Notes: generated from the letters alone by a model not told the origin. A stretch of DNA of 40,978 bases from an uncultured Desulfobacteraceae bacterium (GCA_903839535.1 CAIMCT010000552.1:1-40978); one strand, 5' to 3'; shown: positions 3,323 through 39,768, counted from the stretch's first letter. A program made the numbers and translations.

Positions 3323-3324
3323 CC

Positions 3325-21934: not shown

Positions 21935-24046
21935 TTACGAATTGCCCCTCCAATCCTCCGTCAGCGCCTTGAAGGCCGCTTGAGCCGGGTCACTGTAAAA
22001 CTCGATCTGCACTTTGTCAATCACTTCATCGGGCAGGGTGGCGAAGTCTTTTCGATTTGCAGTTGGAATCATTACCCGTCTTGCCCCGGAATCCATGGCA
22101 ACGCGCAGCTTATCACCAAGACCTTCCATACGACTGAGAACACCGTGAAGACTCATTTCTCCCAAAACGACCAGTCCCGCCGCCACGGTTCTGGACAGAA
22201 TGGCAGAGACCAAACCCACGAAGAAAGCCACCCCCAGATCGTGGGCATCTTTGCCCTGCATCAAGCTGATTAACTGAATATTCACGTCACAACTGGAAAG
22301 CTCCCGATCTATCCCTATCTTTTTCGCATTAGCCTTTAGAAAATCATAAGCCATTTTAGCCGATTCACGGATATTCCTGGAAGAGGTTCCCACCAGGTTA
22401 AACTTCCCTGAACCCACACTGATATTGATCTGGATTCGATAAAGGGAATATCTTGTTTCCGCCTGATCATAACCGATGGTGAAGATATCGCCAGGCGGGA
22501 GGGGAGTATCGGGGATCAACTGGATGCTTCCCAGTTCCGGGCAACCGATGAAGTGTTCTTCCCCTGTCTTTTTGTCGATATAAGAAAAGTTGACCTTCGC
22601 GTACTCAATGCCGCCCATACGTTTAAGCTGCTCTTTGACACGTCGCCTCATTTCCAGTGCAAAGCTCACATATTCTTCAACCTCTTGGTGTGAGGGATCA
22701 TTCGCCGGATGAAGCAGCTTGACCAAGCCGGAAACTGTCTTCACGACTGCCGTCCTGTCCCGCGCTTCCAGGTGGTTGCCGAAGGTAAAATAGCGCTCAT
22801 GAATATCGGCGAAATTGAGGTTCCGCATCCCTTCGTGGAATATCTCTGCGATGTAGTCAGAGATGAAACCCAAATGATCCGTGAAATAGGCCGTCTGCAT
22901 CTTGGGAATTTCCCAGCCCGGCAGATAGCCGTGCCAGCGGTCGTGGAAAGCCATATCGTTTCGAATGGAGTCCGGCAGGGCCGAAAAGAGATGAGAGACC
23001 CGGGCAATGGATTCAACATCGCCATCAATGTTGCCGTTGAAGACGATTCCCGCATCCGCCTGGATCGTTCCTTTGTCATCACCCCGTGAAAAGGACCGTT
23101 GTTCCATGTAGCCCTTGTACATCTGCTTGTCGTTTTCTTTCTTGAAATGTGATCCCGAAACCTCATCAAAGGCGACCAGATCGTAGCGAATGACAAGACC
23201 CGGCTTGTCCTTCCGGTTCTTCCAGCCAAAGAGATCAGCCACGGAACCCTGTCCCCCGCTGAGCAGAATCACATAAGGTGATATTTCCCTGTAAACATAA
23301 GACTTCCCTGTTCCCCTCGGCCCCAGCTCAATAAGGTTGTAATTCTTCTCTACCATGGGGACCATCCTGGATAGAAAAAGCAGTTTTCTACGGGGTGTAA
23401 AATCACCGTTCGTAGGTTCGTAGCCCATTGTCCGGAGGAGAATGGCGATCCATTCATCTCTTGTGAACATTGCCCGCCCTTCGATGAATTCCTGCAAATT
23501 AGCGCTGGCAATCTGAATCGGCTGAAGACGGTTCAGAACAAAAGGTCTTGTCATCCCTTTATGTACCCGCGTTTCGTCGTAGGCAATCTCCAGATTGGCC
23601 CAGATGCCTCCGGTCAACAGGCGCTCATGCTCATAAACAAGCGCTTCCGAGATATGGACATGATCCATGCCCGCTGTGGCCAGGCTGGCCCAGTATTTAC
23701 CCCCTTCATCTTTTTCATCGAAAGAGACCATAACCAGGTCAATCAGCTTATGGCTACCCTTTTTCTTCAGATTGGATTTGATCAGTTCCCCCCGGTCGGC
23801 CCTGACGATCCGTTCGGAAATAACATCTTTGACCCGCTTGATTCCTTCTGCAATTTCAATTTCATTGGTGGTTGAACAGTACTTGCCAAGCAGATATTCA
23901 AGGACGTAAACGGGAATGTTGTCACCGACCTTGAAACGCTTGACAAGGTCCTTCCGTACTACCCGACCGGGAAAGACTTTGAAGAGTTTCTGATCCAGGG
24001 CATCAACCCAGTTTGTCTGATTTATCTGTTCTTCCTTCATAGCCAT
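21935..24046 (-). CDS. brxL: BREX protein BrxL (Lon-like)
   Basis: N-terminal FPGRVVRKDLVKRFKVGDNIPVYVLEYLLGKYC, ATPase LGPRGTGKSYVYREISPY, C-terminal Lon-like GAKDAHDLGVAFFVGLVSAIL...GEMSLHG; start may be 24040 with ATGA overlap to pglZ. Confidence 0.92.
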   Translation of the reverse strand: MAMKEEQINQTNWVDALDQKLFKVFPGRVVRKDLVKRFKVGDNIPVYVLEYLLGKYCSTTNEIEIAEGIKRVKDVISERIVRADRGELIKSNLKKKGSHKLIDLVMVSFDEKDEGGKYWASLATAGMDHVHISEALVYEHERLLTGGIWANLEIAYDETRVHKGMTRPFVLNRLQPIQIASANLQEFIEGRAMFTRDEWIAILLRTMGYEPTNGDFTPRRKLLFLSRMVPMVEKNYNLIELGPRGTGKSYVYREISPYVILLSGGQGSVADLFGWKNRKDKPGLVIRYDLVAFDEVSGSHFKKENDKQMYKGYMEQRSFSRGDDKGTIQADAGIVFNGNIDGDVESIARVSHLFSALPDSIRNDMAFHDRWHGYLPGWEIPKMQTAYFTDHLGFISDYIAEIFHEGMRNLNFADIHERYFTFGNHLEARDRTAVVKTVSGLVKLLHPANDPSHQEVEEYVSFALEMRRRVKEQLKRMGGIEYAKVNFSYIDKKTGEEHFIGCPELGSIQLIPDTPLPPGDIFTIGYDQAETRYSLYRIQINISVGSGKFNLVGTSSRNIRESAKMAYDFLKANAKKIGIDRELSSCDVNIQLISLMQGKDAHDLGVAFFVGLVSAILSRTVAAGLVVLGEMSLHGVLSRMEGLGDKLRVAMDSGARRVMIPTANRKDFATLPDEVIDKVQIEFYSDPAQAAFKALTEDWRGNS

Positions 24047-26514
24047 TCATCCATATCAATTTTCAATGTTACATCAGCCGATGCTAATATCTCCTCGTTA
24101 TCGGCATCGAGAATAAACAATGTCAATTTTTGCCCATAGCGGCCTTCCGCTCCAGAAACCTTTACCAGCTTTACCTGTCGGATGTCATCTTTCGGACTGA
24201 CCGCGATATCTCCTGATTTGAAAAGGATATTTCCGGATGCTGTGTCCCGAATCTTGACGACAATCTGTCTGCCAAGATAGCTGCCGTCAATCTCACCTAA
24301 GATGTCTTTCTTTCCTCTCGTCTCCGGTTCTATTTCGACAACCGGTTCCAACGTTGTAATCTCAGCAACAGGCTTCAGGACAATACCCGTCTTTTTCGCC
24401 TTTTTCGTCCACTGAATACAAACCAGGGGGATTAGCCATTCCTGCAAAGTCGCACCTCGATGGAAAAAGCCGATGCCGCCATAGGTCCTGAAGGCGTTGA
24501 CGCTTCGGGGGGTCAGGCATTCCAGGTCGCTGCCGGCAACTCTTGTCCGAATGGCCGTCTTGTGTTTAAGATTTTTTCCTACGATGGCCCGTCTCGCCTT
24601 CCAGAGGATATCCCCATCGGGTTTTTCCATGATTTCATCGTCTCCGGTGACATAATGGAAATAACCGTGATCCGTGGTCAGAAAAATACGCATATAACCG
24701 GCATCCCTGAGCTTCCGGATGACTTGCGCATAACGTTCGAGGTAATCTCCGGTGCCGGAAAGGGCAAGCTCACCTACATGCCCCTGAGCGTCGAATTCAT
24801 CACCAAAGAGAAAAATGAGCTTCCCCACGGGCAGTTTAATGCCGTTATTGATCACATCTGTCACTGCCATGATATGGGATGGCTTCACGCCATATATGGC
24901 GTTCAACCAGCTCCGCCGAGAGACCGCAAGGGATAGATTCTGACTAAACCCTTCAGCATGAACGGCCCAGCCCTTTTCCTGATCTACGGTGACCCGCAGG
25001 CTTTTCGCGAGGATAGGCAGGGCATAGGCCATACCCAGTTCCGTCGTAGTAGGTACTGGAGCCATACATGGGCGTACAGAAGCAGCAGGTGATGTCTGGC
25101 CTTCATTAATCATCTCGGCCAGGCGTTTCCCCAGTTCGAAACGGAAAGCGTCAATCACAATGACTGCTGCTGGTTCTTTATTTTCCTCGATGCTTGCCTT
25201 CAAAGCTTCCCCGGCATAGGGCAGGTGAGTTTGCTCCGGCCAACCGGAATCATGGGCCGCGAATTCGGAGAAAGCTGTATTGGTCCGATCAAGGATGATC
25301 CAGAACGCTTTTCTGAGTATCTTCTGTACCTCACAAAGGTCTGCTTCTTCAATGGACCATTCCTGCATAAGACTATCTCCTTCAGTATCCACCTGCCATC
25401 CATGACCGACATACCAGTCAATGGCATCCTTCAGAGTGTGCCAGTTTTTCTCTACGCCTTCATTTTCCCGGAGTACCTGCGCTGCTTTTCCCAAACCCGC
25501 CAGGATATCCCAGGGCACTCTTTTTTTTGTCCATTGGCCCCAGAAGCTTTGAGCATGATGCAGATAGTTTTCTCTTTTTCGGGTAAGATAAGTAGCCAGC
25601 TCCAGGAAATCCTCAAATTTGTTGATCTGCTTTATTTCGTTTTCAAATGAGGTCTTTTCCGCCCTGTAGGAGGCGAAGGGCTCTGACAGGGTGAAGGAGC
25701 GCTCCATCATCATGGACTGAAGGTTCAGAAGGGCGTCTGCTTTTTTTGCCAGAGTCTCTAATTTCGATTGAAGCTGAATATCCCGTTGCCACTGGTCCAA
25801 AAGTTCCATCGCCCGTTTTCTGCTGTTTCCCGACGGGATGATCCAGTCCGATGTGGAGAAGCCACCCTCTCCAAGTTTGAGCGCTGCATCTGTGGCCATG
25901 AGTCGAGCCACTGCACGGATACGCCATTTATCCAGTTCGTCCAAATCCGGTGTCGGAAAGCCGAAATCAACGGTGACGCGGCGTTTGAACAGGTTTCTTT
26001 TCTCTTCGCTTATTTGATTTGCGATGGGCTTGCCCACATCCGCAAGTACGAGGAGAATCGTCCCCGCCGAAATCAGTTCATCGGGAGTAATTTTTTTCCA
26101 TCTGACGAGCGGTTCATCCAATTTTGCCAAGGCATAAGCCAGGAGGTCCTCCTTGACTTCGTCTTCCTGTGACCGTGTAATTTCCACACCGTATTCGCGC
26201 AATGCTTCCAGTAGGGAAATTTCCCTAAACGATGCCTCGCCGGCAAAAACCTGCAAATAACTGAGATACTTCTTCTTTCTCGGAAGCCAGATCACGCGGG
26301 GCCTGCGCTCTTCAACGGCTAAACGATGCCGGAGCAACAATTCGTGGCCTTCTTCCGCCCATAATTCATAAGTATCCCCACAGGTCTTCTGGAGAAGTTC
26401 TTTCCACTCTCTTGCAGGGTCGCACCAGATGATAAACGGCGCGGGTTCAACCGGTTTGGATAAAACTGATTGGATCTGTTCAAGCAGGTAATTTTTAAAA
26501 GAGCGATCTCTCAT
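24037..26514 (-). CDS. pglZ: BREX alkaline-phosphatase-superfamily protein PglZ
   Basis: 825 aa; VIVIDAFRFELGKRLAE (metal-binding region), LTTDHGYFHYV, located directly upstream of brxL. Confidence 0.92.
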   Translation of the reverse strand: MRDRSFKNYLLEQIQSVLSKPVEPAPFIIWCDPAREWKELLQKTCGDTYELWAEEGHELLLRHRLAVEERRPRVIWLPRKKKYLSYLQVFAGEASFREISLLEALREYGVEITRSQEDEVKEDLLAYALAKLDEPLVRWKKITPDELISAGTILLVLADVGKPIANQISEEKRNLFKRRVTVDFGFPTPDLDELDKWRIRAVARLMATDAALKLGEGGFSTSDWIIPSGNSRKRAMELLDQWQRDIQLQSKLETLAKKADALLNLQSMMMERSFTLSEPFASYRAEKTSFENEIKQINKFEDFLELATYLTRKRENYLHHAQSFWGQWTKKRVPWDILAGLGKAAQVLRENEGVEKNWHTLKDAIDWYVGHGWQVDTEGDSLMQEWSIEEADLCEVQKILRKAFWIILDRTNTAFSEFAAHDSGWPEQTHLPYAGEALKASIEENKEPAAVIVIDAFRFELGKRLAEMINEGQTSPAASVRPCMAPVPTTTELGMAYALPILAKSLRVTVDQEKGWAVHAEGFSQNLSLAVSRRSWLNAIYGVKPSHIMAVTDVINNGIKLPVGKLIFLFGDEFDAQGHVGELALSGTGDYLERYAQVIRKLRDAGYMRIFLTTDHGYFHYVTGDDEIMEKPDGDILWKARRAIVGKNLKHKTAIRTRVAGSDLECLTPRSVNAFRTYGGIGFFHRGATLQEWLIPLVCIQWTKKAKKTGIVLKPVAEITTLEPVVEIEPETRGKKDILGEIDGSYLGRQIVVKIRDTASGNILFKSGDIAVSPKDDIRQVKLVKVSGAEGRYGQKLTLFILDADNEEILASADVTLKIDMDEWL

Positions 26515-26668: not shown

Positions 26669-26866
26669 CTATGCCTCCTGATTGAGCAGCGATAAACGCT
26701 TTTCGATGCCAGCAAGCATGTCAACGGTCGCCGACCATTCCACATAATCCATATCGTCGCCCATTGCCCCCTTCTCGTAACATGTGTAGAATTCTTCCGA
26801 GTTCAGCCCGTATTTTTCTTCCAACTCGGTTTTCTGCATTAATAAATGCTGTTTTAGTTCATCCAT
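26669..26866 (-). CDS. Small acidic ORF, 65 aa, antitoxin-like
   Basis: MDELKQHLLMQKTELEEKYGLNSEEFYTCYEKGAMGDDMDYVEWSATVDMLAGIEKRLSLLNQEA; start overlaps the 3' end of pglX-C; resembles small antitoxin partners by recall only. Confidence 0.65.
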   Translation of the reverse strand: MDELKQHLLMQKTELEEKYGLNSEEFYTCYEKGAMGDDMDYVEWSATVDMLAGIEKRLSLLNQEA

Positions 26867-29606
26867 CCGAGAGGCCTCGCGTTTCAATATACTCCCACCA
26901 GCCCGGTTTGGGCAGTTTTCCTTCACGACACCAGCGCCGCTCGTCGTCGCGCCAGGCGGCTCGGTCGGCAATGGACTTCACCACATCCTTGCCTGCCAGT
27001 ACGTCCGCTGCCAATAATCCAGCCTTCTGCAATGGTGCGATATTCACCCGCACGCCGTCGTTGATATCAGGCTGGTAAAGGCTTTCCTGCCGGATGAATT
27101 CCGCGACCGTCTGCGGCGGCGGACGCTTTCCATTCAGGCTGGACAGTTGATCATACATCGACTGTTCCGCAAGCCATGATTCATAGGCAAGCGCTTCCGG
27201 CCAAGACCAGGATTCAATAGCGTACCGCACAGCTTTCCCCCGACCAGACTTTAAAGTCAATTCTTTTTGCCAGGCATTGATATCGGATTTCATGGAATTG
27301 ATTTTTCGATTCATGTCCGCCTGCTCATTGAAGTCGCCTTCTGGATGGCTGAATTGCTCTTTCAGCAATTGATGCTCTTTCTTTGCATCCCTGATTTTTT
27401 CGGAAATCGGTTTTAGTAACATGGCATCAAAAGTCTTCCACCAGACAGCACAGGCACATCTCAGGGCTTCTGTAATCATGGCATCCGATTCGGCGTAGAT
27501 CATTTCCGCCAAGTCTTGTGCTGTGGGATCGTCGTTCAGGGTTTTTTCAGGCGGCGGCTTAGGGCCAACGGCGGCGCAATGGCAATCTATATGGGTTATG
27601 GCGTTCGTGATCCAGGTAGAAAATTCCTCATGGAGGCCCGTCTTATCGGCCTGATCTCGCCAGTTCAACAAAGGACCTGCCTGAATCGCACCGCTCAGTT
27701 TTTTTAGCCACCTGGCTTTGAGGCAGAGCATGGCATCGTTGATGGCATACTGGCGAAGCTGAGGCCGGAGAGCTTCCGGCCCAAAACCCGATGCACTGAC
27801 TTCAGTCAAGACAACTTCGAAAGCCTTAAGTTCCTGGATTCGATATCGTAGAGAATCTTTCTTTTCTTTCTGTTCGTCATTAAGGTCTCCGGTTGCGTTC
27901 TCCAGGCTGCGTTGTTCCATCTCCAGACGTTTCAACAGCAAGATAACATATTGGTTTTTGAGCTTGGGCAAGATGTCGCCATCTGTTTTTTGGTAATAGA
28001 TCAGGCATTCAAAGGCAGCATCCTGTCGGGGACGGCTGGCCCATTTGCTGCTGGAAATATGCCAGGCGATGGGGCGCTTTTTGAACTGGGAGGTGTGGTG
28101 GCGAAAGAAGTCCTTCCGGACCCATTCTGCCAGAGGTTTACCCATGATGTCTTCAAAAGTGTTTTCTTCCGATGATACCCGTTCATCTCCATAGTCGGCA
28201 GCCAGACGTCCCCTGATGCGGGCATTCAATGTGGCTTCATCCGTTCCTTCCATCAGGGGAATGATTCCATCATCATCCGCCCAGGCTGGAACCTCACCTG
28301 CTTCGATCTGCCTCGGCCAACGGTGGCCCAGAAGTCTGAGAATTAAGACCGTGAAGCGGTCCTTCGTCAAACGCTGTTCCTCTGGCAGGCAGCGCCAACC
28401 ATCGTTTTCTATTCCTTCCTTGAGCATCCAGTAAACGGAAATGGGATGGACCTTCATTTTCTGGGAGAGTTCTTCGATGAATGTTTCGGCAGGAATAGGG
28501 ATGTGTGCACCGGCGATTACTTGCTCTTCATCTTCGTCTGAAGCTGCTGTATTATCTACATTTTCTGTTTCTGCATTGACACCGGGGCCTGCTTTATAAA
28601 GCAGTCTCAGTTGGTACTTCAGGTTGGCTAAATTGTCAGGACTATCATATAGTCGCTGATGTAATCTCAAGAATTCTGATAGTCCGGTAGGTAATCCAGA
28701 TATTAAAACGTTCAACGTGACATCCGGGAAGGTATCGTAATCACGCACTAACGGGAACCAAGCAGCCGGTGTGCCAGTTTCATGAAGTATAGCGAGTCTA
28801 TCACCTTCATTGAGTTCGTAAGCATCAAATAACACGCTTTCAGAAAATCCTTCAATTGTGTGCAAGGCGGCAGCAATTGGATAGTAGCAAGCTACCTCAG
28901 AATCCAGCAGAACAAAGTTTGTCGGATTACAAGCTCTCTCAAGTGGATTCTGAGCAGTAAGAGAATACTTGAGATCAATACAGATACTCTCGATATCTCC
29001 AAACAGTGACTGCGGTAAATCAACAACAGGAAGGCTTGCAAGACTGCCCAAACTGAACATAAAGGACCGTGCAACAACGCGCAATAAATATGAATTAAAT
29101 CTGGAATTCAGCATAGCAAGATAGCCATGAACTTCTTCCTTCGGGAAAATCCCCGGACCAGACTTACAGAAGGTCTCTCCCGCCCGTATTCTTCGAGCTC
29201 CTAATGCTCCTCTTGCTGCTTCCGTGTAAGTAATTCCTATCCCAAACATAAGTTGTTCGTTCCTGACATAGGAGGCACTACAACTTTTGATTCGAATCCC
29301 ATCAAGTTCCCATTCAAGAACAAATCTTTTGAATCCCTCCCATTTGCTGTAACCACCCCCTCTCGAAGCCCAATACCAACGTGTGCCTGTTGGTACCTCC
29401 CAGTTACCTCTCATAAAACGTTCGTTATTCCCTGTAGTGGATGGTTCGGCAAGGTGAGCAACATCTTGGAGGGTCTTTCCAGCCAAAACCTTAAATAACC
29501 GCTCTCGTAGCCAGTAACACAAAGGCGCTTGTGGTATGTCAAGAAAGCGCATCTGGCGCGAACGGAATACAACATTCTGCGAGCAATCGGTAACTGAAGC
29601 CTTCAT
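26859..29606 (-). CDS. pglX: C-terminal half of BREX methyltransferase PglX (target-recognition region and helical tail)
   Basis: 915 aa; begins FLDIPQAPLCYWLRERL, the segment that follows the methyltransferase fold in intact PglX; no methyltransferase motifs. Confidence 0.8.
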   Translation of the reverse strand: MKASVTDCSQNVVFRSRQMRFLDIPQAPLCYWLRERLFKVLAGKTLQDVAHLAEPSTTGNNERFMRGNWEVPTGTRWYWASRGGGYSKWEGFKRFVLEWELDGIRIKSCSASYVRNEQLMFGIGITYTEAARGALGARRIRAGETFCKSGPGIFPKEEVHGYLAMLNSRFNSYLLRVVARSFMFSLGSLASLPVVDLPQSLFGDIESICIDLKYSLTAQNPLERACNPTNFVLLDSEVACYYPIAAALHTIEGFSESVLFDAYELNEGDRLAILHETGTPAAWFPLVRDYDTFPDVTLNVLISGLPTGLSEFLRLHQRLYDSPDNLANLKYQLRLLYKAGPGVNAETENVDNTAASDEDEEQVIAGAHIPIPAETFIEELSQKMKVHPISVYWMLKEGIENDGWRCLPEEQRLTKDRFTVLILRLLGHRWPRQIEAGEVPAWADDDGIIPLMEGTDEATLNARIRGRLAADYGDERVSSEENTFEDIMGKPLAEWVRKDFFRHHTSQFKKRPIAWHISSSKWASRPRQDAAFECLIYYQKTDGDILPKLKNQYVILLLKRLEMEQRSLENATGDLNDEQKEKKDSLRYRIQELKAFEVVLTEVSASGFGPEALRPQLRQYAINDAMLCLKARWLKKLSGAIQAGPLLNWRDQADKTGLHEEFSTWITNAITHIDCHCAAVGPKPPPEKTLNDDPTAQDLAEMIYAESDAMITEALRCACAVWWKTFDAMLLKPISEKIRDAKKEHQLLKEQFSHPEGDFNEQADMNRKINSMKSDINAWQKELTLKSGRGKAVRYAIESWSWPEALAYESWLAEQSMYDQLSSLNGKRPPPQTVAEFIRQESLYQPDINDGVRVNIAPLQKAGLLAADVLAGKDVVKSIADRAAWRDDERRWCREGKLPKPGWWEYIETRGLSDG

Positions 29607-31072
29607 CTACGTTTCACGCCTCCCTTACGTCGCAGACCCAGTCCAAACAGGTAAATATCCGGAACGTCTATACGATCGTTGGTCCGCTCGCGGAAGATGC
29701 CCAACTCCACCAGATAGTCTATGAGCTCTCTTCCTGTTTGGGCGGGCGGGTTTATGTGCCTGTTACCTTGTCCCCAGGATTGTTTCCAATTCTGCTCCAG
29801 CAGTTCCTGTAACTCGCGCCGATTCCATGGGGCCAGCCTGTCAACTATCCGCTCCCTGACCCCATGCAGCCAGGGCCATTCATTGTGGATGGCCTGAATG
29901 ACATGATCTGCCGAGACATCTTCGAGAGCCTGGCGAAGTGATGTGGGATGAAGGAGTTTGGGTGGAGTGGCGCGAGGGTTTCCACGTTCCTTCAGAGCTG
30001 CTTGCTCGAAGAGCCTTACCAATGCTCTTGGCGTGGCGCATTTGTGGCCGTCACGAAGATGATCAAGCACCCAGTTGAAGCTTTGCCCCTTGTTTGTGTT
30101 GGTGCCCATGTATTGTCCTACGGTACGTTCTATAAATGGGCGGGCATCCTCTGCTTTTTTCAGGTTCGGAATATGGCCGAATGTTTTGTGTGGTTCCTTG
30201 CTGAAGGGAATCCGAGCGCCCTTACAGTAATCGAACAACTGTTCATCAGTGTTTGCAATACGCTTAATGAGCATCGAGAAAAGATTCTGATCGCTCCAGC
30301 CAAGCTCAACCCGATTGGCGGCCAGTTTGGCCAGGTCCGCCCCCCCAATTCCCGCGTGGCGCCGGAACAGATCCTTTCGCAGGAATATCTTGGCCCGGAG
30401 TCTCTGCCATCGCCTTGCATAACTGGACCAGAATGCAACGAGCCCCTGAATGGCCTTGGCCATTGCTTCCCAATCGAAACCACCCAAAGTATCCAATTCG
30501 TCATAGCCGACAAACAGCCACTGATCCGCATCCTGGAGTTTCTGATCCAACAGGTCCAGAGCAAGTAATGGCTCATTTCCCGAATTTGCGAATGCATCGA
30601 GTACTTGATCCGGTGCGCCTCCGGGCAAATCAAGAAATTTCAGCTTTCCGGGATCGCTTATCTCGTCTTTAAGAACCCGTATGAGGTATGCGAACCAAAG
30701 ATCCACAGCCTGATCCGGTGTCTTCAGAGCGTTCGTCAGGCCTCGAGAATCAGCAAACTGCGCACCTATAGGGTATCCTGGTATCAACTTGATGAGATCA
30801 GCGTTTTTATAGGGTAATCGCAACTCGGGAGCAAAAGGTGCCAACGCAGACAACAGTCTGTTTTTGAAAACCGCATTGAAAAGAGCAGATTTGCCTGTTC
30901 CTCTCTCTCCCACCACAAGCATCACATCGGGATCGAAGGCACGAAGGTGCTGTCTGATAGGATAATACCGACATGCGAAAGACTCCCCAGGTTCCGATTC
31001 TGCCTGGCCGTAACCAAGGTTCGAAAGAAAATCCAGGAGAGTCTTCTGCGTGTCTTTTCTGAATTTACTCAT
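29603..31072 (-). CDS. P-loop ATPase inserted between pglX halves
   Basis: VVGERGTGKSALFNAVF (Walker A), WLFVGYDELDTL (Walker B); 4-nt overlaps with both neighbours. Confidence 0.8.
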   Translation of the reverse strand: MSKFRKDTQKTLLDFLSNLGYGQAESEPGESFACRYYPIRQHLRAFDPDVMLVVGERGTGKSALFNAVFKNRLLSALAPFAPELRLPYKNADLIKLIPGYPIGAQFADSRGLTNALKTPDQAVDLWFAYLIRVLKDEISDPGKLKFLDLPGGAPDQVLDAFANSGNEPLLALDLLDQKLQDADQWLFVGYDELDTLGGFDWEAMAKAIQGLVAFWSSYARRWQRLRAKIFLRKDLFRRHAGIGGADLAKLAANRVELGWSDQNLFSMLIKRIANTDEQLFDYCKGARIPFSKEPHKTFGHIPNLKKAEDARPFIERTVGQYMGTNTNKGQSFNWVLDHLRDGHKCATPRALVRLFEQAALKERGNPRATPPKLLHPTSLRQALEDVSADHVIQAIHNEWPWLHGVRERIVDRLAPWNRRELQELLEQNWKQSWGQGNRHINPPAQTGRELIDYLVELGIFRERTNDRIDVPDIYLFGLGLRRKGGVKRR

Positions 31073-32391
31073 TGCTTGTCACCTCTGAACCGGTTGAGAA
31101 TACGGTTGGCAAGACTCTGGTAGTCCGGCGATTCCACAATCGTTCCTGCCACTTCATCGATATTGCGAAAATCAGACAAAACTTCGTCGTAGCGAATTGG
31201 GACCGGAACATGCGGTGCATCACTGCTTTCAATATCTTCAATACTCCAGAAATTATCCAGGCCGGACTCTGCATAGTAAAGCTCCGTGAATTCATCACGG
31301 GCTCTGTCTGCAAATCTTTGAGTTGCTTGCTTATTCAGTTCGGGTGCTCTTGCAACCATCGCCTGAACCATAATGCAGTCGCCTTGCTGCTTGTCTGCCC
31401 GGACCCGCTGAGCACCCAGACGCTCGATAATCAGCCTCAAGCCACGCCAACTCTGCTCGGAAGAGGTACCAAACAGCACATGCAAATGGGCGAAACCACC
31501 CAAAACCATGCCGGCAGTCTCGGCGAGTCCAGCGCGGAGATCCACTAAAAGCCAATGAGGGCGAAGTTGCGTGCGCACATCCTGGAGGAGCATGAAAAAA
31601 GGATGCTTTTGTTTGTCTTCAGGCCTCGGCGGTTCGAAATCCAGGCGAGCCAGCTTACCAAGGTATTCGCTGTCGACGCGTCCTGATGGAATCACCATAA
31701 TTTCCCCTTTTCCCGTCACCTTTTCACGGCGGCAGGCATGGTAGTAATCCCGAAAATCTACCGGCCCAATAGGTTGTTCGAGCAAATAATCCGCTACACC
31801 CCATCTCGCCGTTGTTCCTTCCTCGTCGGCGGCCAGCAAAGTGCCTATACCGGGGGCATCGAGGTCCGAATCAATGACAGCCACTCTTTCGCCCTTTCGC
31901 GCCCGATGAATCGCAAAGGCAGCCAATGCGGTGGATCGGCCGACACCACCCTTGAAGGAATAAAAAACCACAATAGGAGGCTGCTTGGTACTCGGACGAA
32001 CCGGCTTTTCCCAGGGAGGCTGATCCATTGGAGAAAACCATGCACCGCGTGACCGGTAGCGATCCAGAATGCGCAATCGGGATTCATCCGGATGTGGTTT
32101 GCTTTCCTTCCATGTGTTGTCATATACAAACTTGTCAGTATCCGACACTTCCTTACTCACAGTCCAGATGTCATCTGTCCAGATACCCTGGACCTCTTCA
32201 CCCAGTTGCTTCCGGATGTCGTCGATCAAGTCTTGATGAGCGCCTCCAGGCCATACCACAAGGCGAAGTTTGCCATAGATATCTTCTATCAGTACCATTT
32301 TGCAATCAGGAGGAGCATTTCTCAAAGCAGTAATCAAAAGCATTACCGCCGAATGGCGTGCTTCATCCAAATGCTTGAAATTTATTGTCAT
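31069..32391 (-). CDS. ParA/MinD-like ATPase with KGGVGR deviant P-loop
   Basis: VVFYSFKGGVGRSTALAAFAIHRARKGERVAVIDSDLDAPGIGTLL; start assigned to the ATGA overlapping the HEPN-like stop. Confidence 0.85.
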   Translation of the reverse strand: MTINFKHLDEARHSAVMLLITALRNAPPDCKMVLIEDIYGKLRLVVWPGGAHQDLIDDIRKQLGEEVQGIWTDDIWTVSKEVSDTDKFVYDNTWKESKPHPDESRLRILDRYRSRGAWFSPMDQPPWEKPVRPSTKQPPIVVFYSFKGGVGRSTALAAFAIHRARKGERVAVIDSDLDAPGIGTLLAADEEGTTARWGVADYLLEQPIGPVDFRDYYHACRREKVTGKGEIMVIPSGRVDSEYLGKLARLDFEPPRPEDKQKHPFFMLLQDVRTQLRPHWLLVDLRAGLAETAGMVLGGFAHLHVLFGTSSEQSWRGLRLIIERLGAQRVRADKQQGDCIMVQAMVARAPELNKQATQRFADRARDEFTELYYAESGLDNFWSIEDIESSDAPHVPVPIRYDEVLSDFRNIDEVAGTIVESPDYQSLANRILNRFRGDKQ

Positions 32392-32837
32392 AGCGTTACC
32401 TCGCCATCTTTGATAAGGCCCCAAAGCACGTGCTCATACAGACGTTTGGCTTCCGCCACCCAGTCCGAAGCAGTTGTTTTCGGAATGGTTCCTTCACAAT
32501 GGTACCGAAGGGTTTCTTTCCATCCCGCAGGGGGATTGCCGTATGGAAGCCTTGTGACTGAAGAACCCAAAGGAAAATACCGTGCCGTTCTGGAAGACGG
32601 CATAGTTGCCAGCCTTTGCGCATCCACACTTAATTTATTGATGTCGTGAATCATGGGCACTCTGGAAGGCTGGTTAACCTGAATAATGGTTTTGAGAATA
32701 CATTCCACTGCATATCCCGCCAGATAAGCTGCGCCATCATAGCGGCGCCTGTTCATGAGGGCTCGTGCATCCGTGTAGTGTTTTCTTGCTGCATCGGGAT
32801 AGTCCTCGCCTGATAATTGCCGCATGTTCGACATCAA
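32388..32837 (-). CDS. HEPN-domain-like protein
   Basis: 149 aa; KHYTDARALMNRRRYDGAAYLAGYAVECILKTII...IHDINKL, typical of small HEPN proteins; TGATG overlap with pglX-N stop. Confidence 0.7.
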   Translation of the reverse strand: MMSNMRQLSGEDYPDAARKHYTDARALMNRRRYDGAAYLAGYAVECILKTIIQVNQPSRVPMIHDINKLSVDAQRLATMPSSRTARYFPLGSSVTRLPYGNPPAGWKETLRYHCEGTIPKTTASDWVAEAKRLYEHVLWGLIKDGEVTL

Positions 32838-34888
32838 TTGCCGCTCCTTGAGCCATTTTCGTTATAGATGGAATTGAGCGCCTGACGCAATAGTCTATCT
32901 TTCTCCTCCGGGCTCTTCGGTCCGATAAGGCGAAAGGCGGTCAGGCGGTGATCATTAGTCGGGACTTCCTTGGATAGAGTGAAGAGAACGATATTGACTA
33001 CCTCACCGGAGATTTCCCCGAAAGCGCCCGGGCCAAGATGAGCCAGAGTCTCGATTGTTGTCTCCCTGAGGACACCCTTGAAGTCTGTAGTTTTTTTTAG
33101 CTTCTCCTTATCGAGAGAGCGGAGATCGGCGAAGGAACGGAGGAACATCCAGGATTGCTGTGTGACCATCGCTACCCGTCCTATCTCTGGTCGAGCCAGC
33201 TCCAGGCAGCGAAGGATGAAAGCTGCGTAGAGATCGCGCTTCCCGGAGGTGAAGTGTTTTTCTACATATTGCTTCACCACGGGTCCCATGTTCTTAGAGC
33301 CCATATAGGGCGGGTTCGTAGCTACCACGTCATAGCGTCGGGACAGAAAATCGAAAAGGGACAAGCCTTTTCCTGCCGTTTCGCCGAAAAAACGTGAGGA
33401 GAAATCCGCGGAAGCAAATTCTTCCTTGAAATGGTCACCCAGTCGGGTCAATAGTCCGGATTTCCATTCTTTATATGACATAATGCCCAAAGGCAGTGAT
33501 GTCTGCTCCGGTTTTTCCTGTTTTGCAAAGAGTGACTTCTGTTTGGGCGGTCCGGACTTTTCCTCATCAACGAGGGCCTTCAGGGATCGGAATTCCTTTT
33601 CTACAGGCTCTTCGATTTGGAGGAGTGCGCCCAGTTCGTCGGCGTGTCTTAAACTCGCAAAGATCATCTGGAGGGTGGACTTGAAAGGTTTGTCTTCCGG
33701 ATGTTTGTCAAGGAAAGCCGAGAGATGATCCATGTTAGCGCCGGCATGGATATTAGTTGCCGCCAGATTGATGCGCGTCGGTCTGAATGCCCCATCCTTT
33801 TCCTTTGCCTTCATGTACAGGGCGCAGGCGGCAATTTGAATGGCTCGTTCATCAATATCGATCCCAAAAAGATTTTGGCTCAGGATCGCCTCGCATATAT
33901 CTCCGGGCATCTTCAGCTTCCCTTCTTCCAGATACATTGCGTAGAGAAGATCAAAAGCCATGAGGAGAAAATGACCGGAACCGACGCAAGGGTCAAGAAA
34001 AGAAATCGATTTTAGCGATTTTTTCTTCATCTGCGCCCGGTCGGCATCACGGACGTAGTATTCCCAGGATTCGCAGAGACGGGATTCTGGATACATAGCC
34101 ATCCAGAGGGCACCCAAGGAATTCTGAACGAGAAATTTGACCATGTAGGGCTCAGTGTACAACTGGGTGGCGGGAATGATATCGGCCTTCTCGATCTTTG
34201 CGCCCTTGACGGTGCGGATATTTGCAAACACCCGGTCCTTTTCTTCGGTGTTCCAGTATTGATAGGCCCAACCAAGGGTATCCGGTGCGGTGAATATTTC
34301 ATCAGCAGCGGACAGCAACTGAATGCATTTTTTCAGGGCCGCCACGCCAGGTTTCAGGGCGATTACTGGTTCATCTAGGCTGAAAAGTAGGGGGAGTTCC
34401 TCCGCCCGCTCTACAAACTCAGCAGTAAGCGCGGCATAGAGGCCATCGTCTTCTCCGGCGCAGATCTCAGGGTTTTGCCTGGTCAGACGATGATGCTTCA
34501 GGGAGCGGCCACCATAATTGTCCTTCTGGATGATGATCTCGTCGATCAGTGTCCGAGCTTCCATACACCGCAGGGCGATGAGCCGGTTGACCCAGGTATA
34601 GGCTGACTCCTGAAGAAACTCTCCTATTGCATCTTCCCGTGTGCGTCCCGATTGCAGGGAAGATTGGATAAAAGCGTCCACAATCAGCCTGGTGCGTCGA
34701 TCGTCTTCGCATAGATGGGCAAGCTGTTCGAGTGGCAGGGCTTCACGATTCTTACGAACACCCAGGGCAGCCAGACGCTCCTCCAAATCTCCAGGTTGCC
34801 AGATGCCTGTAATGTCATAGCGGCCTTCCAGGATATGACGGAGGGTGAGGACAATGGATTTGAGTTGGGACTTGTATTGAGTTTCCAT
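32834..34888 (-). CDS. pglX: N-terminal half of BREX adenine methyltransferase PglX
   Basis: 684 aa; DPCVGSGHFLLMAFDLLY (motif I), VVATNPPYMGSKN (motif IV), GKRDLYAAFILRCLELARP; ends before the target-recognition segment. Confidence 0.9.
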   Translation of the reverse strand: METQYKSQLKSIVLTLRHILEGRYDITGIWQPGDLEERLAALGVRKNREALPLEQLAHLCEDDRRTRLIVDAFIQSSLQSGRTREDAIGEFLQESAYTWVNRLIALRCMEARTLIDEIIIQKDNYGGRSLKHHRLTRQNPEICAGEDDGLYAALTAEFVERAEELPLLFSLDEPVIALKPGVAALKKCIQLLSAADEIFTAPDTLGWAYQYWNTEEKDRVFANIRTVKGAKIEKADIIPATQLYTEPYMVKFLVQNSLGALWMAMYPESRLCESWEYYVRDADRAQMKKKSLKSISFLDPCVGSGHFLLMAFDLLYAMYLEEGKLKMPGDICEAILSQNLFGIDIDERAIQIAACALYMKAKEKDGAFRPTRINLAATNIHAGANMDHLSAFLDKHPEDKPFKSTLQMIFASLRHADELGALLQIEEPVEKEFRSLKALVDEEKSGPPKQKSLFAKQEKPEQTSLPLGIMSYKEWKSGLLTRLGDHFKEEFASADFSSRFFGETAGKGLSLFDFLSRRYDVVATNPPYMGSKNMGPVVKQYVEKHFTSGKRDLYAAFILRCLELARPEIGRVAMVTQQSWMFLRSFADLRSLDKEKLKKTTDFKGVLRETTIETLAHLGPGAFGEISGEVVNIVLFTLSKEVPTNDHRLTAFRLIGPKSPEEKDRLLRQALNSIYNENGSRSGN

Positions 34889-34891
34889 CTC

Positions 34892-35260
34892 TCATCGCCT
34901 GAAAGGAAGAATGCGCGCCCGCGAACGATAGGGATCAATCGTGATGAGGGCACCCTGTAGAAGTTCCTCTTCGAATTGCCTGATCGCGTTCAAGACCAAA
35001 GATCCAATCTCTTCCGGAACAATATTTTGAGTGCGAACCTGAATGACGCTTGGCCCGGCAGCATCGGTGGACGCAAGCAATGCGCCGAAATCCAGAGCAT
35101 GGGTGAAGACGATGAAACCATGTTCCTGAGCGTAGGCCATTATATCGCTGTCTTTGGCGGTGGGTGCGCCAACGTCGGACCAATGGATACATTCAACACT
35201 TTCAGCAGTCAAGAATTGCACCCATCTGGGTGGTAAATTCATGTCGAGCAACAGTTTCAT
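34892..35260 (-). CDS. DUF5615-like PIN-fold protein, putative toxin
   Basis: MKLLLDMNLPPRWVQFLTAESVECIHWSDVG...DSDIMAYAQEHGFIVFTHALDFG, typical N-terminal Asp and mid-protein HALDFG pattern. Confidence 0.85.
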   Translation of the reverse strand: MKLLLDMNLPPRWVQFLTAESVECIHWSDVGAPTAKDSDIMAYAQEHGFIVFTHALDFGALLASTDAAGPSVIQVRTQNIVPEEIGSLVLNAIRQFEEELLQGALITIDPYRSRARILPFRR

Positions 35261-35487
35261 CCGGTCGCTACCTCAAGTTCTCTCTCTTCTGATCGCCATG
35301 CTGAGTATGAAAGGGCTTCCATGATATCATTTCGCTCCAGATAAGGATATTCCGCAAGAACATCCTCTATTGTCTTACCACAGGCAATCAGGCCGACAAT
35401 GGTTCCTACGGTTACCCGTATGCCCCTGATGCAGGGTTTTCCTCCCATTACCATGGGATCTATCGTAATCCTTTTCAATGGTTCCAT
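35257..35487 (-). CDS. DUF433-family putative antitoxin
   Basis: RITIDPMVMGGKPCIRGIRVTVGTIVGLIACGKTIEDVLAEYPYLERNDIMEAL; 4-nt overlap with the PIN-like gene. Confidence 0.9.
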   Translation of the reverse strand: MEPLKRITIDPMVMGGKPCIRGIRVTVGTIVGLIACGKTIEDVLAEYPYLERNDIMEALSYSAWRSEERELEVATG

Positions 35488-35553: not shown

Positions 35554-38500
35554 TCAAAATAGTTCCACCTCATCACCCTGATCCAGGGCAGCGTTTATTT
35601 GTGCATCCAGATCTTTTTTCAAATCATTCCATTCAGTTATGTTTTTTATTCTTCTGGGGGAGACAATCAACTTGATCTTCCTGACTTGTTTTTTAGCGAC
35701 ACCACCACACCCTCCCGTATCCTTGCTTTTAATAAGCCGCTCCAGGCGCGCACTCAAATCGTTGACTCGGCCTGAAATTTTGTCCGGGAGCAGAGCGATC
35801 TTGATCAGATCGGATTCTTCTTCAATTTCTGTGGTCAAATTCTGACATGCTTTTTCAAATGGGGCGATTTCTTCCGTAGTCAGCAGTTTCGTTGTATTAT
35901 CTTGAACAATGCGGTTTTTAAGGGGAAGGACAGATTCAGTCGCTGTTTGCCGCCATATTCGTTTCAACGCTTCCACCTCAGTCAGGACATGAGCCCTGTT
36001 GTCCTGGAGCTTCCGCCATGTATCTTTTTTATGAATTAATGCATCATTACAAGCCGTTACATAATTATTGAGAAAATGAAGAATAATATTCTCTTCGGGT
36101 ATTTTGTACTTGATGCTATGTAGAGTGCTATAAAGCTCTCTGATTCCCTTGAAAAGTTCAGCGTTCTTGCCGTAAAATGCGTGGACCGCAAGGACTTCAT
36201 TTAGTTCATCTTTTATGGCTGGCGATTTCGCCTCCCACTCCTTGACGTGATGTACAGGGTTGGTGAGACTCAGGAGAGTTTCTATGGTTTCCATGCCTGC
36301 CGTGAAGAATTCCGGCAGCGGAAAGTTTGCGGCTTTTGCCCAGATATGTGCATCATCGCCTTTCTTTTTTATATCTGTCAGATATTTTACTGAAGCAGCG
36401 GCAATGTCCGACGGAGTTTCGTCTATCTTGCGATTCCCCGTCAGCTCGATCAAAAGAGTCCGGACAGTGATTAAAACGGTCGTATCCACATCCGTCTCTT
36501 CCAGAATTACTTCCGCCTTACTGAAAGCTTTGCTGTTACGCATTGTGGCAATCAGCTCTGTATCGGCGGAATTGGTATATATCTTTTTGCTTACGGAAAT
36601 CTTGATCATACCCGCTCTGACTGCCGCCGCGATACCGATGCGAACGGCATTGGGGTCCCAACCATAGGGCGGAGTTTCGAAATGATTGAGTATTTCCTGC
36701 CCGAGAGTTCGCTGCTTTTTATTCAGACGGTTTATCAGATAGATGCGAATTTCATCGATCAGCGGAATGTGAGCGTCCAACTGGCCGGTCTTGTCGTAAA
36801 GCTTCAGGGACTTCACATCCGAAGACAGATTCTTGGCCCCGGCCAGTACATCGGAGATATCCTGTTGTTCCGACTTTATCCGGATGGTCATTTTGTCGTA
36901 TTTTGGATAAAGTGTTCCGAAGTAATGGCTTATTTCACTACGGATTGCATCACCCGGCTTTTGCGATTTGCTAACAATAGCGTGGCTACCGCCCCGGAAG
37001 ATCAAGTGTCCCTGCTTCAATCCCAGACGGATAGATACTTCAACGGCATCCTTCAATTTTGGCAAATCGACAGTGGCCTTGCTGTTGGCCAGTTCACGTT
37101 CTGTGACTGATTTATGCGAGTCACCCTGCCACTTGTCTAACACTTCTTTCATGGCGACATACCGGTCCAGTTGCTCGCTGAATTGTGCAACCCGGTCGCA
37201 GAAGACAAAGATCGTCTGGTTATTCTCCGGTTTGAGGCTTTCATTTTCGTAATCGCCGATGGTTTTTCCTGAATAATGACCAAAAGAAGAAATGATCCGG
37301 ATATCCACATGACCATTTTTTACCAACATCTTGTTGTCAAAAAACAGGCGTGTCTGAAAATCATGTCCCTTGAATGGAATGGTTTCAAATCCCAGAATAT
37401 GGGTGCTGATAAGCTTGTTCAATCCTTCTTCGCGATCTTGAAATTTCAATTGAGCGGTGACGGTGCCCACCGCTTCTTCAAAAGTGCGCCTTTCTCCCGT
37501 CAGAAACTCCCATTCATCGCCGATTCTTGCAACAATCTTGGCCTTTTTTAATTTTTCGAGTTCAGCTTCAATCATTGGTTGCAAGGAAGCCAGGTCCTGC
37601 GAGGTGTCGGAGACCAGAAGTCTGGCGAGATTAGCCGCTGTCTTGGGGATGTAGGCCAAATCACCGATCAAAAAAAGAACTTCCACGAGCTTGGGGGTAA
37701 GATCGGTAGCGGCAGGCACAACGCTTGGGATTTTCGATATTTCACGGCGGATGTCAGCCGAAATTTCCCCTTCCTGAAGCAGATTATAGTAGATTTCATC
37801 GAAGGATACTGTTTCCCCCACGGCCGCCTGAAGGTAATTTCTGCGACCGGCGCGGATAACATCCTGGGTGATGGCCAACAAAGTGCGTGTGGATCCAGAC
37901 AGCGAATCGGATCGTCCCCCCTTGGAGCGAAGGGCTTTCACAATTTCAGGGATCAGGTGAATCTGATAGGGAAAAAAAGGATAAAATTTTACGAAGTTCT
38001 CGCTGCTACATCGTGGAAGGTTCTGAGAAACATTGGCCAGCTCCCCCATACCACAGATAACGCCGGCGTTGTCCTGGTAAATCGCTTCCACATTCTTCTT
38101 CCCAGTCAGCGTTTTCTTGAAAATCCGGTCTTCCAGAACCAATTCGATGTTTTCCGTGGTCAACCCGAATTTAAAGCGAAAACGAGTTTCTATTTTCTTG
38201 AAGTCGCTGTCAAGTGCATGAGCGTTCTTATAGACAGACCCCATATCCTCATGGGTGGTAACCAGTATCCATATCTTTCCCTGTCCGACAATGGCCGCCT
38301 CTTCAACCAATGCCTGCAACTGGGCCAGCCGTCCATGCTGATCCTCTATCCATTGCCCGGATTCGTCCAGTACAAAAAAAATCCGGACGGGCTTTCCGGT
38401 TTCTTTCTCCTGCGTTTTAACGTCGGTAAGAATTGTTTTAATCAGGAATTCAATGTTGAATATCTCCCCCTTTTCGGCGTTGAGCAGAGCTTCAGCAACC

Positions 38501-39177
38501 TCCTCCGGCATTGAAAATAGCTCCGGGGCAATGTCACATACAGCCCCATAGATGTGCTTCCTGTAGAAATTCGGATTGGCCTGTATATTTACCCATGATT
38601 TCCCCGACCTTTTTTCCACCCCCTGGTGAAAGGCAGGCAGTTTATGGAGTTTATCCAGCTCCGCCTCAATGACTTTGGCAAAGATATAATTGCTGCTGTA
38701 TCCCTTGGACAGATAATACTGAGAAAGGAGAAGCGAGGGCAGGAGAGTGCTGCGGCTGTCTGTCAGGGTATTGAGATTGAAGGCCAGAATGGTCGTCGCG
38801 CAGTTGTTCAGAAGGCTTAAGGAACGATCGATGGATTTCTTTCTTTCCGCTGACTCGGGGACTCGGGCGTTAAATCGCTTGGTCGCCGGAATACCGTCCA
38901 AGGTGCGATTTGCCGTAACCTGAGCCAGCATCTTAGCCAGGTGAGACTTGCCGGAGCCGAAATATCCGGATATCCAAACGCCGATTTCCGTGGTCTGCTT
39001 GCGGATCGTGTCGGTATAGTGATCGAAAAAAGAATCCGCATACTCTTCAATATGGGGAGTGACAACAAAACTTCCTATTTCCGAGGCGAGTTTCTTTTCG
39101 TCCTGAACTTCCCCCACCTTGATGACAGGTTCGATTTTCTCTGTAATCCGAGTCTCAAAAATTTCACCGATTTGCAT
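35554..39177 (-). CDS. brxC: BREX P-loop ATPase BrxC
   Basis: ISGYFGSGKSHLAKMLAQV (Walker A), IFFVLDESGQWIEDQHGRLAQLQALVEEA; start set to Met7 of the track ORF because of upstream ggagag. Confidence 0.93.
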   Translation of the reverse strand: MQIGEIFETRITEKIEPVIKVGEVQDEKKLASEIGSFVVTPHIEEYADSFFDHYTDTIRKQTTEIGVWISGYFGSGKSHLAKMLAQVTANRTLDGIPATKRFNARVPESAERKKSIDRSLSLLNNCATTILAFNLNTLTDSRSTLLPSLLLSQYYLSKGYSSNYIFAKVIEAELDKLHKLPAFHQGVEKRSGKSWVNIQANPNFYRKHIYGAVCDIAPELFSMPEEVAEALLNAEKGEIFNIEFLIKTILTDVKTQEKETGKPVRIFFVLDESGQWIEDQHGRLAQLQALVEEAAIVGQGKIWILVTTHEDMGSVYKNAHALDSDFKKIETRFRFKFGLTTENIELVLEDRIFKKTLTGKKNVEAIYQDNAGVICGMGELANVSQNLPRCSSENFVKFYPFFPYQIHLIPEIVKALRSKGGRSDSLSGSTRTLLAITQDVIRAGRRNYLQAAVGETVSFDEIYYNLLQEGEISADIRREISKIPSVVPAATDLTPKLVEVLFLIGDLAYIPKTAANLARLLVSDTSQDLASLQPMIEAELEKLKKAKIVARIGDEWEFLTGERRTFEEAVGTVTAQLKFQDREEGLNKLISTHILGFETIPFKGHDFQTRLFFDNKMLVKNGHVDIRIISSFGHYSGKTIGDYENESLKPENNQTIFVFCDRVAQFSEQLDRYVAMKEVLDKWQGDSHKSVTERELANSKATVDLPKLKDAVEVSIRLGLKQGHLIFRGGSHAIVSKSQKPGDAIRSEISHYFGTLYPKYDKMTIRIKSEQQDISDVLAGAKNLSSDVKSLKLYDKTGQLDAHIPLIDEIRIYLINRLNKKQRTLGQEILNHFETPPYGWDPNAVRIGIAAAVRAGMIKISVSKKIYTNSADTELIATMRNSKAFSKAEVILEETDVDTTVLITVRTLLIELTGNRKIDETPSDIAAASVKYLTDIKKKGDDAHIWAKAANFPLPEFFTAGMETIETLLSLTNPVHHVKEWEAKSPAIKDELNEVLAVHAFYGKNAELFKGIRELYSTLHSIKYKIPEENIILHFLNNYVTACNDALIHKKDTWRKLQDNRAHVLTEVEALKRIWRQTATESVLPLKNRIVQDNTTKLLTTEEIAPFEKACQNLTTEIEEESDLIKIALLPDKISGRVNDLSARLERLIKSKDTGGCGGVAKKQVRKIKLIVSPRRIKNITEWNDLKKDLDAQINAALDQGDEVELF

Positions 39178-39201
39178 AATTAAATCTCTCCACATGATGC
39201 G

Positions 39202-39768
39202 TTAAAGAATGTCGCCACGATACATGAACTCCTCTTTCGTGTTCAGAAAAAGATAAACCCGCTGTTCCAAAAGACATCCGGGAATAAAAACGACTACCGG
39301 GCAATGGATGATCTGACTATGCAGATCCCACAATTGCTGAAGTAAAAATCTCGGTCCTGCCACGGGATACAAGGCAGCCGTTTTCTCTATCACCAGAACG
39401 GGGGGTTTGCTCCGGTGCTCAGCAAGCTTTGTCTGGATCGCGGCAATGATTTCGGAAATCCAGAGATTGGCCAGTTCAGTTTCAGGATTCGCCCCCGGCA
39501 TGGGGTCCTCCAGGGCGGCGATGATGTTCTCAACGCCTAATTGATCGTCGCATCGGGTTGTAATATCCAGAATATCCATGTAGATCAGGTCGTACTGATC
39601 GGTGAAGATGCCGGCCTGGGCGCGCCATTCCTTCATGGTCCACAGTTCCGTCTCATGGGGAAAGACGATGGCCAGAAACGGCGCTCCTGTCTGATGTCCA
39701 ATGAAATCATATCGGTCCTTGATGCGGGACACCGCTTCCTTGATTTTCCAGGAGATGTCTTCGTTCAC
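39202..39768 (-). CDS. brxB: BREX protein BrxB (DUF1788)
   Basis: 188 aa between brxA and brxC; PFLAIVFPHETELWTMKEWRAQAG...YMDILDI, C-terminal VVFIPGCLLEQRVYLFLNTKEEFMYRGDIL. Confidence 0.88.
   Translation of the reverse strand: MNEDISWKIKEAVSRIKDRYDFIGHQTGAPFLAIVFPHETELWTMKEWRAQAGIFTDQYDLIYMDILDITTRCDDQLGVENIIAALEDPMPGANPETELANLWISEIIAAIQTKLAEHRSKPPVLVIEKTAALYPVAGPRFLLQQLWDLHSQIIHCPVVVFIPGCLLEQRVYLFLNTKEEFMYRGDIL

Follow-up and report, generated by a model that had tools for sequence, protein, structure and literature searches.

A BREX type 1 operon of an uncultured Desulfobacteraceae bacterium has its methyltransferase gene, pglX, divided in two next to the hinge of the encoded protein, and the gap holds a three-gene candidate defence module. 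We found no PglX divided at the hinge around a defence module in the papers searched. BREX itself is known, the module is known as a candidate only, and a role as back-up effectors has been proposed for HEPN genes that lie within BREX loci (Rakesh & Krishnan 2026, PMC12839542). The reading that we prefer, with a probability of about 0.45, is that of a captured guard or back-up defence module within a BREX system whose methyltransferase works as two subunits; we place it above the readings in which one inserted ATPase is a subunit of the enzyme or the whole trio is a passenger. The organisation suggests that two layers of immunity are wired into one operon.

The window (the whole stretch of 40,978 nucleotides that was analysed) carries on its minus strand, in this order, brxA, brxB, brxC, pglX-N, the genes for a HEPN protein, a KGGVGR ATPase and a Sll1717 ATPase, pglX-C, pglZ and brxL. 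The canonical order of the type 1 core, brxA-brxB-brxC-pglX-pglZ-brxL, is kept, with pglX in two pieces, and all six core genes are open reading frames. The first gene, brxA (39781..40557), is 89% identical to its homologue in a sister locus (L043), in which brxB (39202..39768; PADLOC BrxB, E = 8e-6) is also conserved. The product of brxC (35554..39195; PADLOC BrxC, E = 9e-134) has the Walker A motif GYFGSGKS at residue 77. The N-terminal helical bundle and the N6-adenine methyltransferase are encoded by pglX-N (32834..34888), which ends just before the hinge, matches PADLOC PglX (5e-109) and positions 16-641 of NF033452, the BREX-1 PglX model, and carries GSGH at 303 and NPPY at 525. The hinge, the target-recognition domain (TRD), a spacer and the C-terminal region belong to pglX-C (26859..29606), which matches PADLOC PglX (7.5e-46) from profile position 620 and NF033452 from position 649. 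The operon ends with pglZ (24037..26514; PADLOC PglZ, 3e-31) and brxL (21935..24046; PADLOC BrxL, 5e-259). The SAM and NPPY motifs of a BREX-1 PglX are present in pglX-N and the TRD in pglX-C; methyltransferase and TRD are usually found in one polypeptide, a feature that is not formally defining for BREX-1 and from which this locus departs. Between brxC and pglX-N lies a DUF433/DUF5615 pair of the toxin-antitoxin type (34892..35487, minus strand; Pfam PF04255 and PF18480), a passenger that has no counterpart in the sister loci L005 and L043. L043 has instead a PIN-like pair at 14600-15284, between pglX-C and pglZ, and the same BREX operon carries differing small toxin-antitoxin-like passengers in the window and in L043.

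The gap between the pglX halves measures 3.2 kb and is filled by the three other genes, all on the minus strand: the HEPN gene (32388..32834, ATG at 32834), the gene for a ParA/MinD-like ATPase with the KGGVGR motif (31069..32391, ATG at 32391) and that for a P-loop ATPase of the Sll1717 family (29603..31072). The pglX-N/HEPN junction is TGATG, an overlap of 1 nt, and the HEPN/KGGVGR, KGGVGR/Sll1717 and Sll1717/pglX-C junctions are ATGA overlaps of 4 nt each. Ribosome-binding-like stretches (AAGGAG, GAGG, AGAGG and GGGAGG) can be read off the sequence upstream of the starts at the four junctions. All the gene positions, the order and the tight overlaps given in the earlier note were found where it had placed them. 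It had also taken the coupling of every junction as a sign of an evolved architecture. The overlaps stand; however, the inner two (HEPN/KGGVGR and KGGVGR/Sll1717) are frequent in standalone trios as well and belong to the module, and therefore only the two outer junctions are informative on accommodation in pglX.

The three adjacent genes match the three PADLOC profiles of the candidate system PDC-M28. The HEPN protein (PDC-M28A, 4e-15) was correctly recognised as HEPN-like from the sequence, both by family (PF05168, 4.7e-6, above the cut-off) and by the HEPN helical-bundle fold of its AlphaFold2 model (pLDDT 79), which matches the PF05168-type HEPN proteins ST0689, AF0298 and TM0613 with a probability of 1.0 and E values of 0.01-0.2. 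The accompanying proposal that it could be an RNase finds no support in its motifs: the canonical HEPN RNase motif Rx4-6H of the last helix is absent in all aligned homologues, and an assignment as a canonical HEPN RNase was rejected. Residues H19, E44, K48, R110 and Y111 are invariant across these homologues, and with such polar residues kept the protein may have a non-canonical activity; some PF05168 HEPNs have D replacing H, plus another conserved H that possibly contributes to activity (Anantharaman et al., PMC3710099). The second protein (PDC-M28B, 6.5e-59) is a 'KGGVGR-motif variant AAA ATPase' in NCBIfam (NF047398, 1.6e-49), and the third (PDC-M28C, 1.6e-63), with the Walker A motif GERGTGKS at 55, is a 'P-loop ATPase, Sll1717 family' (NF047389, 1.9e-27). 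A PDB sequence search with the Sll1717 ATPase gave no matches. Its AlphaFold2 model, built from an alignment of 14 sequences (pLDDT 78, pTM 0.80), had BrxC chains, ORC2 and Cdc6 as top matches among solved structures, with TM-scores of 0.29-0.39 that are low and therefore point to the AAA+/ORC-Cdc6/STAND class and to nothing finer. The model indicates, at class level only, an AAA+/STAND-type NTPase of the fold class of BrxC and BrxD.

The position of the split was mapped on the Salmonella/E. coli PglX/BrxX (8c45), with which pglX-N aligns over residues 71-641 and pglX-C from about residue 639. In the Salmonella PglX structure the hinge comprises residues 654-659 and the TRD starts at 662 (PMC11341690); the break at residue ~640 falls just N-terminal to this hinge. 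By these alignments, the insertion parts the methyltransferase from the recognition domain, and the halves resemble the separate M and S subunits of type I systems. In BREX, by contrast, the TRD is reported to be built into the enzyme itself (PMC12707154). Seven other PglX proteins of the phylum (in G597, G449, G556, G036, G425 and, as two copies, G497) are unsplit at this point, some of them being otherwise truncated or frameshifted and several lying at contig ends. Moreover, the target-recognition segment of pglX-C (28558..29457, minus strand) is a differing allele in the sister genome: identity is about 53% over 29457-28558, in comparison to 83-99% in the preceding genes and 76-91% afterwards. 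By this pattern the block is a recognition-allele swap between two congeneric species, with well-conserved DNA on either side, and such a swap is expected only if pglX-C is in use.

The same split was found in two further genomes, which rejects the assembly artefact that the earlier note had named as a possible refutation, along with a failure of the trio to recur with pglX elsewhere. In a MAG of the window's genus (uncultured Desulfobacteraceae, CAJBLH010000167.1; L005), the gene order is identical, with both trio and split, and DNA identity to the window is ~83-99% outside the recognition domain of pglX-C; this is apparently the same contig as L043 (genome G511). In a genome of another family of the same order (G457, locus L044), pglX is split at the same place and the Sll1717 ATPase gene lies alone inside it, 74% identical to that of the window and with ATGA at both ends. 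Split pglX with inserted genes is accordingly known from three genomes (window, L005/L043 and L044), the only ones with a close relative of the window's Sll1717 ATPase inside pglX in a search that took in 243 genomes of the order and 390 of the class; the whole-genome search covered one phylum. One scan of the genome contigs returned a single relative, and a single-sequence search of viral contigs gave no relative of the window's pglX-N or Sll1717 ATPase. The split genes are near neighbours in the pglX-N tree, which is compatible with a single origin, and the unsplit gene of G597 is not firmly outside them. At the tail of the G457 pglX-N, around 9090-9187 of L044, we noticed the sequence NFRDLPLPGGAQCW, which recalls the hinge motif F-x-x-IPGSPxxYW that also opens pglX-C and is a possible remnant of the unsplit gene.

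Both pglX halves and the inserted genes are, as judged from substitution rates, under purifying selection. Between the window and L043, dN/dS was 0.12 for HEPN, 0.06 for the KGGVGR ATPase and 0.08 for the Sll1717 ATPase, and 0.19, 0.31 and 0.15 for pglX-N, pglX-C and brxC; between the window and L044 it was 0.07 for the Sll1717 ATPase and 0.09 for pglX-N, with dS near saturation. That the insertion inactivated pglX and the BREX locus is being lost is highly improbable on these data, although the trio does stand beside BREX remnants in two places (L088 on contig C230 of G511, and L023 in G047). In three genomes both halves are open and purifying selection acts on them, the TRD has diversified and the six core genes are open; the dN/dS values and the turnover of the TRD in particular disfavour decay. 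The view of the earlier note that this is an evolved architecture and not a random insertion is borne out by the recurrence in three genomes, by dN/dS far below 1 and by trios that lie within or next to BREX and restriction operons. The synonymous distances between the window and L043 are uneven (dS 0.05 for HEPN, 0.17 for the KGGVGR ATPase, 0.29 for pglX-N and 0.42 for the Sll1717 ATPase). Those of HEPN and the KGGVGR ATPase are far below the other two, which suggests that this part was exchanged separately.

This unevenness is one of the observations that a different reading would explain, namely that the split methyltransferase has a dedicated third subunit in the Sll1717 ATPase, for ATP-driven assembly or gating of its M-like and S-like halves, and that HEPN and the KGGVGR ATPase joined later as a separately exchanged add-on. 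The ATPase is found between the halves in all three split PglX, in one of them as the sole inserted gene of the three; across a deep divergence it shows strong purifying selection, and by its model it may share the AAA+ class with BrxC. However, ATPases of this family also work in trios that stand alone, and the nearest other one, in G597, belongs to a complete trio adjoining the start of a DUF1156-type gene; the complete trio may thus be the ancestral state, with L044 derived from it by loss. To our knowledge, no such ATPase is required by the BREX-1 PglX enzymes that have been characterised. We consider a dedicated subunit possible, if on the whole unlikely. The suggestion of the earlier note that the trio could regulate assembly of the two halves nevertheless gains weight from L044, because that locus keeps the Sll1717 ATPase alone between them. 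In a somewhat less likely version, the split and the ATPase would have co-evolved, the Sll1717 ATPase bridging or gating the halves and the BREX enzyme existing only as a three-part ATP-dependent complex. Its disruption by phage anti-BREX proteins would be the tripwire that releases the KGGVGR/HEPN arm, and two defence layers would be joined via one protein. The retention of the ATPase in L044 without HEPN and the KGGVGR ATPase in cis is not predicted by a pure guard model, but G457 has two more trios or B-C pairs elsewhere in its genome (B and C being the KGGVGR and Sll1717 ATPases), and partners for the L044 ATPase could therefore act in trans. ATPase-only L044 also offers a means to separate the role of the module in the split enzyme from its role in defence.

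The neighbourhood survey that had been proposed for the trio inside or beside pglX found it in BREX-1, BREX-2 and other restriction operons. Standalone trios are carried by plasmids of Tistrella, Skermanella, Agrobacterium, Paraburkholderia, Enterobacter and Burkholderia, and Calothrix and Nostoc plasmids have the trio near restriction genes. In BREX-2 operons it lies between pglX and pglY (Thiodictyon and Sphaerotilus) or between pglW and pglX (Streptomyces NBC_01334). Three of the six plasmids with a BREX-2 pglZ carry the trio, in comparison to 18-28 of 72,556 plasmids overall (hypergeometric P about 1e-9, an order of magnitude only, as plasmid records are non-independent). Elsewhere in the phylum, the trio of G328 has a DUF1156 methyltransferase on one side and a PLD helicase on the other; in G457 one trio follows type III mod-res (C37) and another precedes the genes of an HKD/Snf2 helicase and of a type IIG enzyme (C11). 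B and C alone lie between brxC and pglX in G425. Alignment searches of IMG/VR gave about a dozen contigs with a standalone trio in the order H-B-C and others with B and C fused. A collection of phage records contained no match to the Sll1717 ATPase, and a near search of E. coli genomes no match to the Enterobacter trio. On the tree of the Sll1717 ATPase the restriction context needs six changes, at least four of them forced by supported branches (G425, on a very long branch, was left unused), which argues for repeated recruitment and not one event. Judged by its distribution, the trio is a mobile defence module that has been recruited repeatedly by restriction operons of the BREX-1, BREX-2, DUF1156-helicase and type III kinds. 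The proposal of a second defence layer fits with these occurrences, the trio being a PADLOC candidate that also stands alone on plasmids and prophage-type contigs.

The same mobility could mean that an autonomous module merely sits at a permissive domain boundary between self-assembling halves and shares only transcription with them. Standalone trios, the further passengers of the operon (the DUF433/DUF5615 pair and the PIN pair of L043) and the 4-nt overlaps, of a kind usual for bacterial operons and in part brought along by the module, agree with a passenger, but recruitment by restriction operons far above chance, with at least four label changes on the tree, and the ATPase-only retention in L044 speak against it, and we hold it to be unlikely. 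An addiction pair of a HEPN toxin and a KGGVGR ATPase antitoxin that stabilises the BREX operon is very unlikely: the mobile distribution would suit it, and HEPN-ParA/Soj dyads have been predicted as toxin-antitoxin systems for another HEPN family (Anantharaman 2013, PMC3710099), but the module mostly comprises three genes and its HEPN, of a differing family, is without the canonical catalytic motif.

Several minor variants were seen among these loci. In the brxC-pglX gap of the G425 BREX-1 (L092, C1, 4985-9788), the KGGVGR and Sll1717-like ATPases are accompanied by a ParA-like protein (HKGGVSKTT) and a small ORF. Fused KGGVGR and Sll1717 ATPases of ~900-980 aa occur at L027, L029, L128, L139, L140, L149, L153 and L157, several with a HEPN-like gene upstream. 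The window's own genome has further, partly broken KGGVGR-family genes (L048, G000:C436; L049, G000:C501). In the Thiodictyon BREX-2 (L055, 359-4515) pglX is also annotated in two pieces, upstream of the trio, and in that of Polaromonas (L167, 6521-8140) another ATP-binding protein and a small gene lie between pglX and pglY, an accessory slot that is used by the trio elsewhere.

The guard or back-up reading rests on the split at the methyltransferase/TRD boundary, the recurrence, the selection, the exchange of the TRD as a block, the recruitment by restriction operons and the BrxC chains that head the PDB fold matches for the Sll1717 model. It is weakened by this match being weak (TM 0.3-0.4) and at class level, by a HEPN without Rx4-6H, which leaves an RNase effector without motif support, and by the many standalone trios, which leave crosstalk with BREX at this locus hypothetical. 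According to this guard reading, PglX would consist of two proteins, with the methyltransferase in pglX-N and the hinge and recognition domain in pglX-C, and these two subunits would have to pair again as HsdM and HsdS do. The mobile PDC-M28 module would have been captured between the halves and be co-produced with the split enzyme as its guard or back-up. The Sll1717 ATPase would touch the split PglX/BREX complex and, together with the KGGVGR ATPase, keep the HEPN protein in an inactive state as long as BREX is neither inhibited nor overwhelmed; once released, the HEPN protein would stop the infection. That ATPases restrain a HEPN effector and respond to BREX inhibition is conceived by analogy with PrrC/EcoPrrI and PARIS/BREX.

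Both are precedents for an accessory module in a restriction or BREX locus (PMC3710099, PMC12707154, PMC12839542). PrrC in the EcoPrrI type Ic locus likewise places a HEPN domain with NTPase control inside a methylation-based restriction operon; however, PrrC is a single ABC-ATPase-HEPN protein and an active nuclease, whereas the window has three separate proteins, with non-ABC ATPases (KGGVGR and Sll1717 P-loop) and a HEPN without Rx4-6H, and is not a PrrC system. PARIS (AriA/AriB) is likewise a defence module that BREX loci have taken up as an accessory (PMC12839542), but it consists of OLD-ABC and TOPRIM proteins and is not reported within pglX; its parts, and those of MNT-HEPN toxin-antitoxin systems, do not correspond to the KGGVGR ATPase, Sll1717 ATPase and HEPN found here, and both assignments were rejected. 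Type I restriction-modification systems also keep methyltransferase and target recognition in separate proteins (HsdM and HsdS) and exchange the TRD as a block. In contrast to them, both halves are homologous to PglX throughout and the operon has no HsdR translocase-endonuclease, which excludes type I membership; the M/S-like pairing is proposed by analogy. BREX type 1 systems share the six core genes, their order and the BREX-1-type PglX, and differ in that PglX here is two polypeptides; the three proteins match the three PDC-M28 profiles, the difference being that the module sits here inside a BREX methyltransferase gene, with one half on either side. No publication was found under the name PDC-M28, literature searches on KGGVGR, pglX insertions and split PglX gave nothing specific, and neither a split PglX nor KGGVGR/Sll1717 partners were found in the main text of PMC12839542.

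Published BREX methyltransferases bear their own recognition domain, and a natural split into M and S-like parts would permit a cheap exchange of specificity. The isolated C-terminal domain of the Salmonella PglX could not be expressed (PMC11341690), and pglX-C is its natural counterpart. The link of PDC-M28 with several types of restriction operon provides a concrete and testable example of layered immunity that resembles PrrC and PARIS but is built of unrelated parts. At the other end of the window (188-6456), neighbouring N6_N4 methylase and ResIII helicase genes form a second, type III-like restriction system.
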